From Branchiostoma floridae (taxonomy: Eukaryota; Chordata; Leptocardii; Amphioxiformes; Branchiostomatidae), in the NCBI RefSeq assembly GCF_000003815.2, contig NC_049984.1:16938495-17002494 (forward strand): DNA of 64,000 nucleotides. Direction: 5' to 3'. Shown piece by piece: positions 1,403 through 64,000 of this stretch (within the stretch, counting starts at the first letter, position 1; the number at the start of each line of letters is the position of its first letter). The notes under the pieces were generated by a model. That model searched no databases. It was not told the DNA's origin and worked only from the letters and a program-made list of their open reading frames with translations. Made by a program: the position numbers and the translations under genes.

Positions 1403-39201
<37,799 letters not shown>

Positions 39202-42481: not shown

Positions 42482-43468
42482 CTAGTAGCATTTCGATGTA
42501 AGAGCTTTCCAATACTTTGTCATTTTCTCCGGATTCCCAGCCCCGCGTGAAACCACCAACCACTCAAACCCACAGGAGTTAATGTTCACGTCATAATGAC
42601 AGAAGCCGCTGTGATGGCGGGGAGCGATACCCAGCTTCTCCAGACAGATCCCCAGGTAAATGTCTGCCATGAATAAGTACTTTGTGGTCAGAGACGTCTC
42701 GTACAGAAGCCACGGCATGTCGTTGGACATGACGTAGGCGAAGCCCCAGACATACGGTGGAAACGTGTCGCCGGGAAACACGTCGTTCGGTACGTACCAA
42801 TATTTCCACGGACCGTTTGGGTCGCGAGTAGGCTTTTTGTCAGTGATGACCCAACCGAGCATTAATTCGCTCGCTTCAGATTCAGGCAACCCTTTCAAGT
42901 ATGTGACCAGGCTGAAGATGTTCACAAAGGTGTCTGGTGACGTTTTCATGACGTATTTGGCATTGGGACAAAACTGGAAGGCCCATTTCAAACACATGAC
43001 TGTCTTAAGGGTGCCATTGCGAGGTGCGTCTGTGAAGCTTTCCTGAATGATATCTCTGAACATCTCGTTCTCGTCTTGAAGAGTTTGCTGGATCCCTGCA
43101 TCATCGCTCACGCCGAATGCGAAGATGGTTCTGATGGCGCCGATTCCCGGGATGTTAATCTCGTCCCCCCAGGTGTTCCGGATAGCCTGTCTCTGCGCCT
43201 TGCTCTCGGGTGGCGTGGTGACAATGATGAGAAGGAAAACATCCTCTCCTTTACATTTACCGGGGTTATTTAAGGTGAAAGTGAAGGGATGCGGGTTCGG
43301 TACCCGTCTGAGGTACTCTGGTCGATCCTGATGTGGGTCTCTGCCCTGTAGCGGCCATTCCACTGACGTGACGTCTTGGTGCAATGGGGGAAATACGTAA
43401 AGTAGACCAACGAGAACACAGACGGCAACCACAGCCTGAGGGGCCTTGCTGGCACAAAATCTCCCCAT
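42482..43468 (-). CDS. Beta-1,3-galactosyltransferase-like protein (GT31 family), possibly altered active site
   Basis: A 328-aa, single-exon frame with type II Golgi topology: a short cytosolic tail, then a signal anchor at about residues 11-29 (AVVAVCVLVGLLYVF). GT31 landmarks follow: DVFLLIIVTT (76-85), RQAIRNTWG (93-101), an N-glycosylation site NGT (151-153), KTSPDTFVN (175-183), PPYVWGFAYVMS (237-248) and ADIYLGICLEKLGI (268-281). GT31 enzymes transfer Gal, GlcNAc or GalNAc in beta-1,3 linkage to glycans. Here the usual metal-binding KTDDD reads KTSPD, and the Glu of the usual EDV(Y)xG is Ala. Both changes are at key positions, so it may be inactive or use an altered mechanism. The sequence is intact, with no frameshift. 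The start is the ATG just before the anchor. Donor, acceptor and orthologue cannot be named. Confidence 0.9.
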   Translation of the reverse strand: MGRFCASKAPQAVVAVCVLVGLLYVFPPLHQDVTSVEWPLQGRDPHQDRPEYLRRVPNPHPFTFTLNNPGKCKGEDVFLLIIVTTPPESKAQRQAIRNTWGDEINIPGIGAIRTIFAFGVSDDAGIQQTLQDENEMFRDIIQESFTDAPRNGTLKTVMCLKWAFQFCPNAKYVMKTSPDTFVNIFSLVTYLKGLPESEASELMLGWVITDKKPTRDPNGPWKYWYVPNDVFPGDTFPPYVWGFAYVMSNDMPWLLYETSLTTKYLFMADIYLGICLEKLGIAPRHHSGFCHYDVNINSCGFEWLVVSRGAGNPEKMTKYWKALTSKCY

Positions 43469-43504
43469 TTCTGTTATCTAGTCTTCGAATTCTTCTGTAG
43501 GATT

Positions 43505-45560: not shown

Positions 45561-45660
45561 NNNNNNNNNNNNNNNNNNNNNNNNNNNNNNNNNNNNNNNN
45601 NNNNNNNNNNNNNNNNNNNNNNNNNNNNNNNNNNNNNNNNNNNNNNNNNNNNNNNNNNNN
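45561..45660. other. Assembly gap (100 N)
   Basis: Exactly 100 N, the usual placeholder for a gap of unknown size. The open frames running through it are meaningless. Confidence 0.99.
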
Positions 45661-46020
45661 TCAATTATATTAAAGATCTTGCCACATATCGCCCTTGGAT
45701 CATTTGAATTCACATGATCAATTAGAAGGGAATGCTTTTCACACGAGTGCTGCACTTTCTTCATCAGTCACTAGTCGGCGTTTCTTTTCACGCAACCAAA
45801 CTCGTATTTTTCCCGAACTTCAGTCAGGGTTTGTACGATACTTATATATTACTTAGGAAACCTTTTCATGCAGCTGAATGTTGATACATATCCCAATAAC
45901 GTCATATTGCCGGTTGTGTACATGTAATGATGATGCCACGATTCATGTGTACACAGGAAAGGAACTGTCACCATGCGTTCACGGGACGTGCGTAACGTTA
46001 CATACATTGCTGGAATGTCT

Positions 46021-46041
46021 TTCAGCACCAAGGACAATGCC
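46021..46041 (+). promoter_or_regulatory. RE1/NRSE-like motif 1
   Basis: TTCAGCACCAAGGACA followed by ATGCC. Both RE1 half-sites (TTCAGCACC and GGACA) are present at canonical spacing; the last position of GGACAG differs. Confidence 0.5.
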
Positions 46042-46187
46042 GGTGCTGTTACGGCGATTCGATGCCAACACACAACATAGCTACATGTTTGTATCTGCTT
46101 ACGACTTCTCCATGATCAAACACGTCCATACAAACTCGACGTTACAGATGACCTCGCCTGGAAACCCCAATCTTACCTTCACCCAAA

Positions 46188-46208
46188 TTCAGCACCAAGG
46201 ACAGCAGC
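46188..46208 (+). promoter_or_regulatory. RE1/NRSE-like motif 2
   Basis: TTCAGCACCAAGGACAGC followed by AGC. Full left half-site and full right half-site GGACAGC; the best match of the three to the vertebrate RE1 consensus. Confidence 0.6.
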
Positions 46209-46315
46209 TGCACTCAAAAGCAATGCTAGCTTGCTGGTTACTTCTCCATTCAATCCACACATTCCATACAAACCTGACTTTTGATTTGGATGCCTCTATC
46301 TTACCTGTACCTTAC

Positions 46316-46336
46316 TTCAGCACCAAGGACAGGGTG
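46316..46336 (+). promoter_or_regulatory. RE1/NRSE-like motif 3
   Basis: TTCAGCACCAAGGACAGGG followed by TG. Same orientation as the other two and identical to motif 2 over its first 17 bases. Confidence 0.55.
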
Positions 46337-46718
46337 CATAATTTAGCTTTAAAAGTTCGCTTCACCCAGTGTTCTTCCGCAAAAAAAAAATTGTGAGGAA
46401 AAGAACTACAACTACATAAGCTAATCCAAGTGGATCTCTGGATATTCATACATTCCACACTCACACACACGATGTGGACTGGTGATTTTTGTCCTTTCAG
46501 AATGAACCTATTTGTAGGTAGCGGTATTTGCCATTTTTAAAAGTCTATGGAGCTCTTTTAAAAAAAAGAATAAAACGACGATGGATGGAACTGTGCTATT
46601 TTAAGAAGACAGTTGTGATATAGAATCTAATGCCTGGTGTCCCCCATTTTCATCAAAGTGTAAAGAAAGACTCAACAAAAAACAACACACATTCTTCTTC
46701 ACTTACAAAACTGTTTTG

Positions 46719-47468: not shown

Positions 47469-47670
47469 TAGTCTCTACCAGACTCCGAATCGCTGGAAAA
47501 TCGTAGAAATGGAACAAATAGAGAGGAATATAACCGGGCAGGGAACAGCACGCGATTCCAGGACGATCGCGTGCTGTTCCCTGGCCGGTTATATTCCTCT
47601 GGCCGGCTTACTCCTCTGATTTGTTACATTTCTACGATTTTTCCAGCGATCCGGAGTCTGGTAGAGACTA
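47469..47670. mobile_element. Mutator-like (MULE) hairpin MITE with 9-bp target duplication
   Basis: Ends TAGTCTCTACCAGACTCCG and its complement continue pairing almost to the centre (spacer about TCCAGGACG), so the 202-bp element is nearly one hairpin. The right arm has a small extra segment (AGTAAGCCGGCC region). It is flanked by perfect 9-bp direct repeats GCTTTTTCT (47460-47468 and 47671-47679), the hallmark of Mutator-superfamily insertion. No coding capacity. Confidence 0.88.
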
Positions 47671-50388: not shown

Positions 50389-50981
50389 CTAGGTGACCTT
50401 CGGAGCTGATCTGTCGTTGACGGCGGACACAGGTCTCAACTTGACCCCCCTCTTAATGGCTTCTAGGAGGGAGTCGCGTATGTCGGGAACAGTCATGGCG
50501 GCCCCCGTGTCGGGAGGACTCGCGGACGTCAGCGAGGCTGTTCTGTGTAGCGCCGGTCTGGTCGGGGTGGAGGTTGCAGATGAGGAGGGTGTCGTGTCTC
50601 GTACGGGGTCACCGCCGCCGACTTCTTTGATTGGCTCCTGGGCCAATCCCCCTTCCATCGCGGGGTGCGGCGGCAGGGGGAACTGGGCCTGGGCTGCAGC
50701 CAATCGGTTGAGAAGTGCCGCGCTGGGGGTGGAGCAGCTCCGTCGCACCGGGGGTGGGGGCCGCGGGCCACACATGCTGCTGGAGCGCCGCGCCACCCCC
50801 CCGGGGGTCACCTGCACCTGGCCCGCCGGCACTACCATAGGGATTCCGGCGGTGGAGGCAGGTCGCTTGGGTGTGGAGGTCGGCCGGTACGCACAGCTGA
50901 AATCCCCGCTGCGAGGGATCGTAGAGGACTTGTCAAAATCTCCTTCTACATCCTCACCCCCTATAGAGGAGTAATCAGACT
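50389..50981 (-). CDS. MTSS1: MTSS last coding exon (WH2 and stop)
   Basis: Acceptor TTTGCAG|AGTCTG; stop TAG at 50389-50391. It encodes SDYSSIGGEDVEG, the conserved FDKSSTIPRSGDFS and KRPASTAGIP, a Pro/Ser/Thr linker and the WH2 helix with LLEAIKRGVKLRPV. The exon is much more GC-rich than its surroundings, which creates long open frames on the opposite strand. Confidence 0.95.
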
Positions 50982-53900
50982 CTGCAAACACAGAAGAGAG
51001 AGGTGCTACAGTGACCACCCAGCAAACATAAAGACAGAGTGCAAGACAGATACCTCCAAATCAGTAGTCAGTGGGACAGCAGAACAGAAAGTCACAGACA
51101 AGTGTGCTCAACCAATAAAGAGAGTTATTTACACCTTTAATCAATGCACAGAGAAAGGAAAGCTTGCAATACTAAGTGCAACAAAGCAACATACATAGCT
51201 ACAGGTACAGAGAACTAAAATAAGAGAACTGCAATTCAGCACAGAGCTTGTAGATTAGAGTCAAGCATAGAGACTGTCCATATCTCCCAGGAATATGAGG
51301 TTTTAGAGGGAGTGTTGTACCTACCTTGTGTAGAGATAGTGTCCTCGGAGCAGGATGGGGTTGTTGTCTGTGTGTTGTACCCACTGGAGCCCAGACTGGA
51401 GCGGCTCTGGTGAGAGCTGAGGGTACGTGACAGGGCCAGCGCCAGCGAGCCGTCACCGTCCGACCCTCCACTCGACGATGACGTGGTTGTCGGAGACTGG
51501 CTCCCCGCCGTGGTGGTCACGATGGAGTTGCGGTTTCTCTGGGCGGCTGCGATGCAACCCAGGTCATTGACGTTCACATATACTGGCTGGGGAATAACTG
51601 ATGGGAGAGAAAACAGGGATAGCTATGTTAAGCTATGTTGATTGTTTATCAGGGCAGCAAAAGAGCCGGTTATCTTTATTTTGAACTTCAACAAAGCACT
51701 TTTCTGCTTAGTCTGGAGAAGGAAAACTTTGATTTTTATTTATTATAGTCCGGCTTCACACTTTGATTTCTTAAAACAGTTTTCCATCTTATTACTAGTT
51801 GTTGTACTCCTTCGAAAGATTTGCAGTGTGACAGTCAGTGTGTAAACCTACCTTGTTCTGGAGCTGGTGCATTGAAATCAGGCACCAACGAGCTGACAAA
51901 TCCTGAGTCGGACTTCTGTGCCTTGACTGTCACCATGGGCTTCTCAGGAAGGGGGGGCTTGTTCACCGGAGCCAGGGGGAGGCTACCCGTGGCATGTCCC
52001 CCCCACATGCTCGTCGCAGGGGGGGTCAACCCAGGGGAGGATGGCAGGGAGTTGCTCCAGCCAGCGAGAGGGGGGTTGAGTCCGGGCGAGGAGGGGGGTG
52101 GCGTCCATGTGTTGGCAAGAGGAGGGGGTAGAGGAGAGGTAGGGGAGGGGGAGGTTGTTGACGAGGGGGTGTGTTCGCTGGAGGAGTGTATGTGTCCGAG
52201 AACAGGAGGTGGAGGCGGCGGCGGCTCATTTTCCTCAATTGCAACAGTCATCTGGAATACAAGAAAACAGTTATATGAAAACTGTCACAGCAATCAGTAA
52301 AAATTCAGCAAAGCTGTTATTACAATCAAAGCGACAGTTATCTACATGTACCATAAATGGAGAAGGAAAGATCAAAGCACTGCAGAATTTACTTAACTCC
52401 CACCAGAGCACAGTCTGTATAAGCAGAGCACATACTTGTACAGTTAAGTGCTGTGCAGAAGTGTTGATGATTTGTATGTTAGTAAGCATTGAATTTTGAA
52501 GACAATGGCAAAGGTAAATTCTGATAGCCTGTTGTTGTATTACAGTGAAGTTCCACTGTAAAAGTTTCACATGTCCAATCTTGACTTGGTTTGGCTATAT
52601 TGTGTACAAATGTATGTCTTTTATATATTGTTAGAGGTCTCAGTAATTTTACAGCACTAGTTTTGACACTTCTGTCATGTCTGAAGGGAGCACAGTGCAG
52701 AGAAAGAGAAAGCCTGAGAGTTCTACCTGTGAGAGGACTGCCTCAAGGTACTTTACTGGATTTTCTGACATCTATAGGAGGAGAGGAAGAGAGAAGAAGA
52801 GAGTGTGTACATGTGCACACAGGTAGACTCATGCTCGTTGGCCACATTAGGTTTCCAACCTGGATTCTTGTTGAAAGAGCTGGATTTAATTTGCCAACTT
52901 TCTGAGTCTATACCAGCAAGTTTGGGCAACTGCTAAATCCAGATATTCAAAATTTCTCTCAGCATTATATGTGAGAGAATGAGTTAGAGATTGCTCTACA
53001 GCAGAAAACCAAGGAAGAAGACTAATGTGGCCCTCTACTGAAGAAGAGAAGTATTGCAGGTATCTATTGCCTTATCTTTATCAACAGTGTTACATGTACA
53101 TCAAGATTGATTAGATAGTGAACCAATCAATGTACACCTCAACTTGTGTTGCATCCTTATAGGGGGGCTGGACATTACAACAAGCCCCCCTAGCCCTATG
53201 TAACATGATTTAATTGGGAGAGTCACATTAGAGAGTGCATGAAAATTACAACAAAATCTCACAAATGATTGATGAGTGATTAACTCAGTGGAAATCAATC
53301 AACATGATGTTGTTAGTTACCATGGAAACCAGGGATGTGCGTGTGTGATAGGATAGCATTACGTTATGTTCACGAGCTTCGACTAATTTCCCCTTGCCAC
53401 CCAAACTGTGCTTGAAGCTATAGGGACGTTCCGTCCGCTAAACGAACCTCGCTCACACCAGCGAACACCCCCGACAGAGGTTTTCTTCTCCTTTCCACTG
53501 TGGACCCCATTGACCCATGCCCCCACGTGTTCCATGTGTTCCTTCTCTGCAGAGTGGCAGCCTGGATTAGGGGTTACGAGGGAGGGGGTGATTCTATATA
53601 GAGCGTATTCACCTGATGTTATTGGTGGGTCTGCTGCAATATTGGTGTCCCATTTTGCATTTCATTGAATAAGGTCAAGTTGATTTGATTACTAGTATAC
53701 ATAGATGACATCTGCACATGCATTTCCATCCGTTTCCAGAATAAAAACATTTCCAACCGTACTGTAAGTCGCAAAAAGCAGCTGCAAAATGAGCGTAATA
53801 GACTGCAAGAATATAAAAAAACAGCTACAATGTACTTAAGTCATAGAATGCCAAAGTCAATGCCAAACTTTTTTCTAAATCGCAAATTTGCAGAAGTTTT

Positions 53901-56900
53901 GGGGTCCCATCCATTTAATCAAATTAACATGGCCAAACTGAAATGATTTACATCTCAAAATATCTGGAGCTCTATATGCCCAGAAATGCAATTTATTGAA
54001 GTGTACATGAGGACATCAATATTGCCAACAGTATTTAGGTCTTTGACACCCTCTTCATTGCAACAAAAATCCTTTCGATAGATATGGAAATCAACATCAC
54101 GTAGGTAAAATACGCTCTATATACTAGAATAGCATCAAGGTTAGACAACATTCACAATGGAAATGATACAAAACAAAGTGATAAGTTTATGATCAACAGA
54201 AAAGGGTGGTTACAGTAGGATGATCTTTAATATCAAAAACTGTGAATAAAATGAAAAAGAAAAGTATTGAATGGATGGAGACACAAAATGTATCCATGCA
54301 CAACTTACTTACCATTTATTTCAAAACGATTCAGCATGCCAAAGAAGGGTTAAATAAGTAGTATATCAGGGTGAGCCTTTATTAAAGCATTATGCACACA
54401 TGTACATTAGGAGGTTACACGACTATAGTTGATGTTGGGATATTAGTAGAGACTGTTGGTTTGGAGGCTGCCAGGTTCTGTAGATGAAACCTTGCTTACT
54501 GTCACAGATTCTGAAATTCTGTTTTGAGTTTTCTAATAGTCTGAGTCTCCCTACCACCATTTTTAACCCCTTTTGAACTTGATGTGTACTTCACCTACAG
54601 ATGCCAGGGTTCAAACATTCAATAGAACAAAATCAACCGAAGTAAAATGTTACATTCAGGAAAGTTCAGTCCACATGATATAACTGAATTGAAAACACCC
54701 CATCACACATGGGTACGGTCCCAATGGGAGATAAACTTTACAATTATTGATTCTCGTTGACTGATTAGAATTCTGCCTTGAATTGATTTCTCCGATTGAA
54801 ATCACTCATCAATCACATGTGACAAAAAATCACAATATCTAAGCTCAGTACAGTATCCTCAGGTGTCCCATTACCGTTTGGACTGAAAAGCTTTCTCCCA
54901 TCAATATGGTTTCCTGTATCTAGAAGGTTACTGAAGAAACAGTGGGGATATGATACTGAAAAAGGAGAAATGTTTGCGGTGGTTTTAAGGTTGCGTTTTT
55001 CAGTGACCCCTTAACCACAAACCACAGTGAACATTCCTCTTTACAGTAAAACCCTGCAGTTTGAACGTGACAACTCCAATTTCTCGCCACTGCAAATTAA
55101 ATCCTTGCAAATATTTCCCCCTTTACAGTAAGCTGACATTTGCTGGCAAGCGCAGGATATTCTTTCTCCCGAATTTGTGTATTCTTCTTGACCACCACAT
55201 CTATGTTCAGTTACCCACAGTAGCCCCTACATTACTGAGTCTCTAAAAACCAAAAGGTAATCTGAAACTGATCATCATTTGGTCCCAAAACTAAATGGAT
55301 GAAGAAACTTCACCTAAAACTTCGTTCTCCAACTCACTGGACAGAAAGCTTACCTGGTTGGCACTAGAGTCGCTGAAGTTCGAAGGTGACGGCGGTCTTA
55401 GGAACAACGTGTCCTGCGACATGAACCCAGAATCGTGTGACGAAACGCTCGACAACCTCATTGGGGGCGGCGGCGGCTGTGACAGACTGCGGTAGCGGAA
55501 GTGCGCCGATGGAGACCCAGACGACCGCGAATCCGAGCTGTTAATACTGCTCAGGCTGCACATGGACGACTTGCGGGATCCGATAGAGCTGGGGGAGCTG
55601 GGCGGGGTGTGGAACTGCCCCCACGGCGTGCTCTCCCCGCTCATCAAGTCCGTTATGACCTGCTCGCTGGCGGGCGGCAGCTGGTACGGCTGGGCAGACA
55701 TCTTGACCATGTCGTCCAGCACAGACTGCAGGTGTGTGATCTCCTCCAGCATGCCCAGCTCCTCCTCCACCACGGGCTGCATGCACGACACAAACACGCA
55801 GAAACGGCTTCTCTCCGTGATCAGCGCGTTCCGAACAGCGTTCTTCTCGGCTTCCTCTAACGCCTGGTACAGTTCATTGACCCCCTGTAGGGCAGTGTCT
55901 AGCTGCGTTTGCACATCCGCTTTACCTGCAACCAAACAATAAGAGATACACATTCTAATGTACATCTGTAGATGTAACATGAAGAAACAAGTCTTACAGC
56001 ACTCAAAGACAAGAAAAGCAAGGAAAACTTGGCCAACCAAAGTTATACCGGAGTTATACCAAACACAGCATAGCTTTAAGTGGATGTTTCATCAAAACAA
56101 CACATAGCAACTGACTTTTGTACATATCGATCAATGACCATAGATCAACATCAAATTTTTTGCTCTTTTTTCAAGGCCAGGGCCTGCTTTTTATGTACGC
56201 GAAGGAATGAAAAAAAAGCAAGAAATAAAACAAGGAGATTCAAACAAAGTTCAGCTTAACCATGAAGTATTGGAAATAAAAACAATTCCAGTAAATTATT
56301 AATCCAACACCACAAGACGTGCAAGAAGCAAGGGAAAAGAGGTGGCCTGGTATCCATTCTCTTCTAGCTCCGATTCACCCATTTGATCACCTCCTTGCAA
56401 AACAGTCTAGCACCAGTTCCTTTTTAAACATCTTGCCCTTTAAAATGTTCAGACATGGAAAATTTCTTGGTAACAGTGCAACTGAGATCGAACTTCAAAA
56501 TGCTTGTTCAATCCCGTTAGCATGCTGCTACTAAGAACTATAGGACTCCAAGCCAATAAGAGCTCTTGCTTATAATTTAGGTGAGTATTCAACCAGGCTA
56601 TTAGGCAGGGACAGCGATCAGAAAAGCGTACTGGAGCTAGAATAGGATGGATACCAGGCCAGGAGAGGAGTGCAGCGATGCAGTGAAATGTGGGATAGGT
56701 GGATCGCACAGGCAAGCAGTCAACTTTGATTGACTTACCAAGGAATACCACAGATGCAAGAACATGAAAGAAACAGAAACAGGACATATTACTTCCATCT
56801 GTCAAATGGCATGACCATTAAAATTCCTCATGCAAACAACACACGGAAAATGTGCAGTGACATGGATGCTGACTGGGGCAAAGGTGCAGTACCACTGACT

Positions 56901-62066: not shown

Positions 62067-62509
62067 CATACACATGTAAAATGTTTATGAGTACGAAGGA
62101 CCATTGGGTCAAAACGTATTTTAGCGAAGGAGCTGTGAGCTCACAGCTAAGGGGCTGTGTGCTCGGCGAACGAGCTGTGTGCTCACAGCGAAAGGGCTGT
62201 GTGCTCGGCGAAGGAGCTCCGCAGTGTGCTCAGGCCTCACAGCGAAGGGGCTGTAACACCAGGCTGAAGCTGGCCGCCAATTGGTAGCCGCCGATCCAGT
62301 CGCCGATTCGTCATTACACAAAATATAGCATCCCATTCAAAATTCCTAATTTCCTTTAAAAGCTTAAATGGACATCAAGAACTCTATTACCACCCAATTA
62401 TTATACTATGTATAAACATAGATAATAACAGAAAGTATTATATCAACGATTAAGCACAAATAATAGACCCAATTGGGCGGCCAACTTCAGCCTGGTCTAA
62501 AATCAGGCT

Positions 62510-62830
62510 TACGGCTTGTAGAGCAATCTGCTACTTATCGTGGCCCGTGGCGTGGATGTTAAGACGAATTTAGATAGCGCATACCCTAACGTATTCAAAA
62601 CAAATATCAAATCTTACGGGCCGAATTTAATTAATGAACTAGAGGGGAATTAACTAATAAACAAAGGGGACGCTAAAATACGCTGCCATACGGCTTGAAG
62701 AGCAATTTGCTACTATATAAACGTGGTCCGTGAACTTTCAAGACGAATTTAGATAGCTTATACCCCAACGTTTTCAATACAAGTATCAAATCTTACGGGC
62801 CGGATTTAATTGATGAACTAGAAGGGAGCT
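62510..62830. repeat. Internal direct repeat of the fold-back element (about 180-bp period)
   Basis: ACGGCTTGTAGAGCAATCTG through ATTAATGAACTAGAGGGGAA (62513-62650) recurs as ACGGCTTGAAGAGCAATTTG through TGATGAACTAGAAGGGAGCT (62694-62830). Inverted copies occur in the right arm near 62926-63165. Confidence 0.75.
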
Positions 62831-63457
62831 AATTGAGTTGAATCAGTTTGGTCTATAAGAAATCGGCACTGAGCTCTAGTTCATTTAGTATATAAGGTTT
62901 AAGTGCCTCTTAAATGTTAACGGGTCACGTTTAGATACGTAGTAGATTGCCCTACAAGCCGTTTGCATTTGGCAGCCGATTTTAACCCCCCTTTGCTTGG
63001 GTATTTCCTATTAGTTAATTCCCCTCTAGTTCATTAATTAAATCCGACCCGTAAGATTTGATACCCTTTTTTGAATACGTTAGGGTTTGCTAAAATCTAA
63101 ATTCGTCTCAAATTCACGGGCCACGTTTAGATAAGTAGCAGATTGCTCTACAAGCCGTATGGCAGCCGATTTTAGACCAGGCTGAAGTTGGCCGCCGATT
63201 GGGCCTATTATTTGTCCTTAATCGTTGATATAATACTTTTTGTTATCATTTATGTTTATACATACATATATTGGGTGGTAATAGACAATATCCAGCAGTT
63301 CTTGATGTCCATTTAAGCTTTTAAAGGATATTAGGAATTTTTAGTTTCTTCGGATGGGCGTCTGAATGATGCTATGTTTTGTCTAATGACGAATCGGCGG
63401 CTGGATCGGCGGCTACCAATCAGCGGCAAACTTCAGCCTGGTGCACAACCTCCTTCG

Positions 63458-63745
63458 CCGAGCATGCAGCCCCTTTGCTGTGAGCAGCACACAGCTCTTT
63501 CGCCGAGCACGCAGCCCCTTTGCTGTGAGCGCAGAGCTCCTTCGCCGAGCACGCAGCCCCTTTGCTGTGAGCGCACAGCTCTTTCGCTGTGAGCACACAT
63601 GTACTTTGCCGAGCACACAGCCCTTTTGCTGTGAGCACACAGCTAGTTCGCCGAGCACGCAGCCCATTCGCTGTGAGCACACAGCTCGTTCGCCGAGCAC
63701 GCAGCCCCTTAGCTGTGAGCACACAGCCCCTTAGCTGTGAGCACA
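63458..63745. repeat. About 41-bp GC-rich tandem units in the right arm
   Basis: Roughly seven units of the type TTCGCCGAGCACGCAGCCCC plus TTTGCTGTGAGCACACAGCTC. The left arm (62115-62250) has only about three inverted equivalents, so the arms differ in copy number. Confidence 0.85.
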
Positions 63746-64000
63746 CAGCTCCTTCGCTAAACACGTTTTGACCCAATGGTCCTTCGTATATGAGGGAATT
63801 AAAGATTTCATACCAAGGTCAATGTTAGCTTTCCTCCCAATACTGTTTCTTAATTTCTTTTGTTCAAGAGATACACAGAAATAGTACTGACAACAAAATC
63901 TATATTTGCCTACTGCAATATTGACTACCGCCTGGTCCAAAACACTGTAAGTACAGTAATGCCCTAAGAGATATTGATCATCGATACCCTTCCAGGCCAT

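Follow-up and report, generated by a model that had tools for sequence, protein, structure and literature searches.

Does a short cluster of RE1/NRSE-like words in a lancelet consist of genuine elements for a REST-like protein, or does it resemble them for another reason? The question is raised by an intergenic stretch of Branchiostoma floridae (contig NC_049984.1), which was studied within a window of 64,000 nucleotides, i.e. the whole stretch of DNA that was analysed. A scan of the window found the 16-mer TTCAGCACCAAGGACA exactly and on the + strand at 46021-46036, 46188-46203 and 46316-46331, with spacings of 167 and 128 and all three within 311 bp, which confirmed the three same-strand occurrences reported in the preliminary description. 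In every copy the left and right half-sites stand in one orientation and are separated by a 2-base spacer, which is AA in 3/3. Compared with the 17-bp RE1 consensus, copies 2 and 3 gave 0 mismatches and copy 1 gave one. Position 21 is C in copies 1 and 2 and G in copy 3.

Table 1. Coordinates of the RE1-like sites, the spacers between them and the neighbouring genes in the window.
Feature	Position	Strand	Remarks
RE1-like copy 1 TTCAGCACCAAGGACAATGCC	46021..46041	+	exact 16-mer; 22.7 bits, window rank 3; A not G at position 17
RE1-like copy 2 TTCAGCACCAAGGACAGCAGC	46188..46208	+	full 17-bp consensus; 27.4 bits, window rank 1
RE1-like copy 3 TTCAGCACCAAGGACAGGGTG	46316..46336	+	full 17-bp consensus; 25.7 bits, window rank 2
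Weaker fourth RE1-like site TTCAGCACCAAGGGGAGCACC	34318..34338	-	19.8 bits, window rank 4; 1 consensus mismatch
Spacer S (151 bp), between copies 1 and 2	46037..46187	+	from ~46095 onward homologous to S'
Spacer S' (112 bp), between copies 2 and 3	46204..46315	+	diverged tandem duplicate of S
GT31 beta-1,3-galactosyltransferase-like gene, single exon	42485..43477	-	PF01762 E 3.6e-38; B3GALT5 structure E 1.7e-40; start codon ~43468
MTSS (missing-in-metastasis) gene, 3' half	50392..56088	-	IMD PF08397 E 2.4e-20; MTSS1 structure E 3.3e-29

The copies were scored with a matrix of 14 distinct human NRSE sites from Table 1 in the accessible part of PMC1794552, under which these 14 sites themselves gave leave-one-out scores of 9.2 to 33.4. 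Scoring with a REST-type matrix, as the preliminary description had proposed, placed the trio at ranks 1-3 in the window, and 0 of 19,960,000 positions simulated from the window dinucleotides reached the lowest score of the trio (22.7 bits). When up to 3 mismatches were allowed in TTCAGCACCAAGGACA, 5 matches were found in the window, whereas 100 shuffled sequences averaged 0.75 and none of them had 5. Viewed in the window only, the word ACCAAGGACA occurred 7 times against 0.21 expected, with AA as the spacer in 7/7. This enrichment first hinted at a non-REST cause, an objection that was weakened by the genome count per spacer given below. TACATGTA-type words were also over-represented and dispersed across the window, and in its first 61.5 kb just one further complex 10-mer of comparable expectation, TGGACAACAG/CTGTTGTCCA, had 4 or more additional separated loci.

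The cluster is located between GT31 and MTSS. The GT31 start codon, upstream of which it lies, is about 2.6 kb away, and the MTSS stop codon, beyond which it lies, is about 4.1 kb away. The coding exons of MTSS were recognised in part, and a WH2 match (E 0.002) was below its cut-off. A plus-strand frame of 172 aa (45878-46393) covers the cluster, but a coding origin was rejected since the cores sit in three different frames, as each spacing, 167 and 128, exceeds a multiple of three by 2. Pfam gave no match to this frame at E up to 0.01, and Rfam gave 0 matches to RNA genes at gathering scores over the whole window. A reading of TTCAG/CACC as a splice acceptor was set aside as well, because the match runs on through both half-sites.

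Genome-wide counts covered 513,431,437 bases in 431 contigs, with the reversed pattern as control. Exact TTCAGCACCAAGGACA was present in 4,974 copies (2,259 + 2,715) and its reversed control in 0. With any 2-base spacer allowed, TTCAGCACCNNGGACA was present in 8,392 copies compared with 1 in the control, while the degenerate RE1 consensus reached 11,350 (5,489 + 5,861) compared with 65, or about 22 sites per Mb. The preliminary description had considered it extremely unlikely that a 16-mer recurs three times in 300 bp by chance; its sense of rarity needs correcting, as the word is not rare in the genome. A chance match or an assembly artefact next to the 100-N gap at 45561-45660, which ends 361 bp ahead of copy 1, is a highly improbable origin of the trio, and is refuted by the divergence of the spacers and by thousands of genome copies versus 0-1 in the controls.

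The same counts describe how the two half-sites are joined. A spacer other than AA was present in 3,418 of the 8,392 copies, and among the 100 matches listed the non-AA spacers were AG, AT, AC, GC, GA, GT, TT, CA and TG. AA nevertheless makes up 59%, which points to shared descent of many copies. The right half was found at spacings 3-16 (14 spacings together) in 190 places, with 3 in the control, so the canonical 2-base spacing is strongly preferred (8,392 versus 190), the two patterns differing by one base as the final G was included in the 190 and left out of the 8,392. Of 100 altered-spacing matches listed, 77 have a right half at the canonical spacing as well; the remaining 23 are scattered with small peaks at spacings 3, 7 and 8. 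In 262,010 fetched bases all 17 half-site pairs had spacing 2, where 20 of the 21 stretches had been picked around canonical sites. No expanded-spacing class stands out in the lancelet, compared with altered spacing in 5% of the sites in mouse ChIP, as given in the available part of PMC2573930.

An abundant word may simply be carried by repeated DNA. By this account, the trio represents the core of an old and diverse minisatellite or repeat population which resembles RE1 by accident and was multiplied by tandem duplication and transposon hitch-hiking, with no regulatory role. The high number of exact copies and the predominance of the AA spacer agree with it. The flanks of isolated copies were examined in stretches fetched from the matches listed on contig C1, mostly chosen for looking isolated and 20 of them for a non-AA spacer. 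Altogether 95 copies were scored, including the three of the window; 38 of them were isolated, having no other exact core within 400 bp, and a flank counted as shared if at least 60 bp of it matched a copy from a different fetched stretch with E no higher than 1e-6. Two pairs of stretches had long common flanks carrying the exact core (L011/L012, 552 bp at 84%; L014/L024, 340 bp at 98%), indicating that some copies spread with repeated DNA, and L010 and L042 had 60-65 bp in common with an array or with other copies. By contrast, 33 of the 38 isolated copies had no flank in common with any other fetched copy, which argues against a mere repeat core. The preliminary description had named hundreds of genome copies inside a transposon as a sign of such an origin: the number is indeed exceeded, but the kind mostly differs, as these 33 copies show. 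Nor were mismatch forms of the whole 16-mer enriched in the window past 2 mismatches. We therefore regard a meaningless repeat core as an unlikely source of the trio.

Bases outside the search word also argue against it. Base preferences were compared across 31 of the 38 isolated copies. Their selection had relied on 14 core bases alone, and about 60 flanking columns were examined; L010, L011, L012, L024 and L042 were left out for their shared flanks and two copies of L045 for lying in an array, while L017 was kept though its flank resembles a 43-bp unit. As 12 of the 31 had been picked with an AA spacer and 19 without, the spacer columns are not evidence. At position 17, G is found in 23/31 copies (p 1.2e-10); at position 21, C is found in 16/31 (p 8.8e-5 among about 60 columns), a base that 10 of 14 human sites in the accessible part of PMC1794552 also have there. 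Position 18 is G in 14/31 (p 1.3e-3), where human sites mostly have C, and positions 19 and 20 showed no preference in these 31 copies (p 0.46 and 0.31). Hence the C/G, G, C tendency of human sites at 18-20 was not seen in the isolated copies. According to the accessible part of PMC1794552, the core of human RE1 comprises positions 2-9 and 12-17, and 18-20 lie outside it. Eleven bases ahead of the core, position -11 is A in 19/31 copies (p 3.0e-4 before column correction), and we know of no RE1 feature at this position.

RE1 sites would be expected near neuronal genes, and the genes beside such copies were sampled by a Pfam scan of 10 open frames, a small set from seven loci (L031, L034, L037, L044, L045, L046 and L047). 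It yielded one C2 domain, one DRC7 MORN, one weak formin and one weak HipA_C match, and 6 frames were without a match.

How the trio itself arose can be read in part from its spacers. CCATACAAAC is present upstream of copies 2 and 3 at 46126 and 46264, just as the preliminary description had noticed, with one more occurrence at 30142. Even with the core excluded, the sequences ahead of copies 2 and 3 are homologous (local score 53 compared with a best shuffle of 25, n=1000). When gaps were free to fall anywhere, S and S' aligned with identical bases in 84 of the 107 columns that had no gap (global score 70.5 compared with a best shuffle of 46.0, n=2000). Thus at least copies 2 and 3 are local duplicates. 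The 5' flank of copy 1 was at most marginally similar to either of the others (score 18 each, equalled by 50 and 53 of 1000 shuffles), and the sequences flanking copy 1 and copy 3 on the outside were not clearly related to the spacers (117, 140, 286 and 16 of 500 shuffles did as well). The old duplication with a kept core suggested in the preliminary description can accordingly be upheld for copies 2 and 3, copy 1 being either older than or separate from them. Over the first ~58 bases of S the homology to S' was not significant, 173/2000 shuffles being equally good, and unequal crossing-over between two ancestral cores is for this reason not claimed. Since S and S' are still identical at 84/107, the identity of the cores is by itself weak evidence for selection. 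Apart from short words of 13-17 bp at the core and a few 13-mers, the region had no match elsewhere in the window.

Duplication around the core is also found elsewhere in the genome. Among the 100 exact copies listed, all on contig C1, 37 had another copy within 100 bp, 50 had one within 600 bp, many of these in 43-bp arrays, and the remaining 50 were isolated at that distance. Arrays of 43-bp units at four loci have the core in common plus a weak common spacer, and this recurrence of one weak consensus suits a repeat core. Conservation of core and spacer was 0.96/0.92 in L008, 0.91/0.86 in L027, 0.96/0.89 in L028 and 0.97/0.87 in L020 (L018, with 3 units, was left out), and between array consensuses 99/102 core positions agreed versus 92/156 spacer positions. 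Because the arrays were found by the core, its higher conservation is biased and is no proof. Among the matches listed there were also units near 40 bp at C1:416900-417531, and at C1:1537035-1537101 on the minus strand four consensus matches TCAGAACCACRGACAG follow each other at exact 17-bp steps, with head-to-tail cores and no spacer. Such different periods (43, ~40 and 17 bp) around one core speak against a single repeat.

The window trio is not of the 43-bp minisatellite type, in which GATRGTG precedes the core, as its spacings are 167 and 128 and its preceding bases differ. A second trio (L060) has spacings of 164 and 158, intact cores and mutually homologous spacers (46 compared with a best shuffle of 34, n=300). 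Compared with the window spacers, its own showed no homology (scores of 14-27, where the best shuffles reached 27-38), and neither were the window spacers significantly like those of L061; both results again weigh against a common repeat. Taken together, the differences in flanks, in array periods and in L060 indicate that the core recurs in unrelated settings. It is conceivable, if on balance doubtful, that a lancelet RE1 code predating vertebrates became the repeated seed of tandem arrays with periods of about 17, 40, 43 and 130-170 bp and was thereby amplified to tens per Mb. If so, the genome would hold thousands of clustered REST-type docking sites, which might silence in a graded manner, act as a sink for protein or nucleate heterochromatin.

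Local tandem duplication is not new to lancelets. The accessible parts of PMC3087553 and PMC3902484 describe 'mirage' minisatellite duplications in the Adh3 and globin genes, whose units measure about 10-160 bp, and PGBD5 has duplications like them. The present cluster is alike in its local tandem duplication and unlike in its position, for mirages cross intron/exon boundaries whereas here an intergenic RE1-like core is concerned. Clusters are also known for vertebrate RE1s: NSF has four sites packed into less than 100 bp and NPAS4 has three spread across 3 kb (PMC1794552, accessible part), and there are tandem RE1s near Snap25 and Celsr3 (PMC2573930, accessible part). Here too several sites are close together; unlike those, the window has identical 16-bp cores and two spacers that are partly recognisable duplicates. 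Half of the 100 exact lancelet copies listed have a neighbour within 600 bp, which sets them apart from vertebrate RE1/NRSE.

A protein that might read these sites was sought with human REST fingers. Fingers 1-8 gave 606 matches at E up to 0.001, with a best E of 1.6e-39 at 43% identity among the 148 of 3,733 candidates scored. With fingers 2-4 there were 154 matches (E up to 0.01), the best of them at 40% identity among the 150 of 5,701 candidates scored. Six loci examined behind such matches (L049, L050, L051, L053, L055 and L059) contain finger arrays of the CGECGYRT/CDQCDYSA type, a generic family and not REST. The zinc-finger matches were concentrated on contigs C158, C10, C16, C200 and C323, and CGECGYRT and CDQCDYSA fingers alternate in the loci examined.

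Such a wealth of zinc-finger matches, with no REST orthologue recognised among the loci examined, brings up a different zinc-finger protein, for instance one from the large family in this genome, that gained RE1-like specificity independently. Instead of repressing neuronal genes, it would serve to silence repeats, to insulate or in recombination. A repeat-binding factor of this kind would suit the abundance of the sites and their tie to tandem repeats, and would also fit the departure of positions 18-20 from human sites. Convergence would, however, have to account for the half-sites, the 2-base spacing, the freedom of the spacer and the bases at 17 and 21, which are all vertebrate-like, and this is much to ask. 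An unrelated zinc-finger protein is therefore quite improbable as the reader of the trio.

The likeness to vertebrate RE1/NRSE extends to the left half TTCAGCACC, the right half GGACAG, the variable 2-base spacer and the preferred G17 and C21; unlike vertebrate sites, those of the lancelet favour G at 18 and are without preference at 19-20. The lancelet genome is also far denser in sites, with 11,350 in 513 Mb compared with the 1,892 human sites given in the accessible part of PMC1794552, bearing in mind that the consensus used there may differ from ours; of these human sites, 41% were estimated there to be due to chance. For a dedicated silencer, a density of about 22 consensus sites per Mb is high, and many copies sit in minisatellites, which counts against an RE1 reading, as do the REST orthologue missing from the loci examined and the deviation at 18-20. 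In favour of the RE1/NRSE identity proposed in the preliminary description are both half-sites at canonical spacing, the top three matrix ranks, the genome excess over reversed controls, the variable spacer, the preference at 17 and 21, the rarity of altered spacing and the duplications with intact cores. As far as sequence can tell, the trio thus probably consists of genuine RE1/NRSE-type elements for a REST-like protein, duplicated in place. This is the best explanation, followed by the meaningless repeat core and then by the unrelated zinc-finger protein.

For REST-type elements, we infer the following course of events. A lancelet multi-zinc-finger protein of REST type would read the bipartite site, i.e. 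TTCAGCACC, a free 2-base spacer and GGACAG. Local tandem duplication contributed to the three sites, whose cores kept their identity as the sequence between them changed. If vertebrate REST is a guide, the protein would recruit corepressors once bound and keep a nearby promoter down outside neurons; of MTSS and GT31, which the preliminary description had suggested as possible targets, GT31 would be the nearer candidate, judged by the distance of its start codon.

REST is described as vertebrate-conserved in the accessible part of PMC5573535. RE1 sites in lancelets were not reported in the accessible parts of the openly licensed literature searched, including PMC3902484, PMC3145563, PMC2206037 and PMC3087553, and the main text of PMC6292497 has 0 whole-word occurrences of REST, NRSF or RE1. 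Papers on invertebrates or worms do use the wording 'REST ortholog(ue)' in their accessible parts (PMC7728442, PMC8869312), so the factor may have been discussed outside vertebrates. The occurrence of the two-part words in thousands in the lancelet genome suggests, short of proof, that REST-type silencing uses a code which arose before the vertebrates. If a chordate outside the vertebrates does have RE1-type sites in such numbers, the DNA code would date from before the vertebrate radiation, and ancestral RE1 targets would become directly testable. The arrays, in which the number of RE1 copies ranges from one to dozens, would offer a natural series for relating site number to silencing.

Two further structures of the window should be mentioned. 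About 1.1 kb from the RE1 cluster there is a palindromic stretch at 47469-47670, with arms 47469-47500/47639-47670 and 47522-47556/47566-47600 and 97% complementarity. Nested inverted repeats extend over 62092-63788, where the outer arms (62092-62121/63759-63788, 30 nt) are 97% complementary and enclose internal 42-bp tandem units; this stretch of ~1.7 kb looks like a foldback or MITE-type element.
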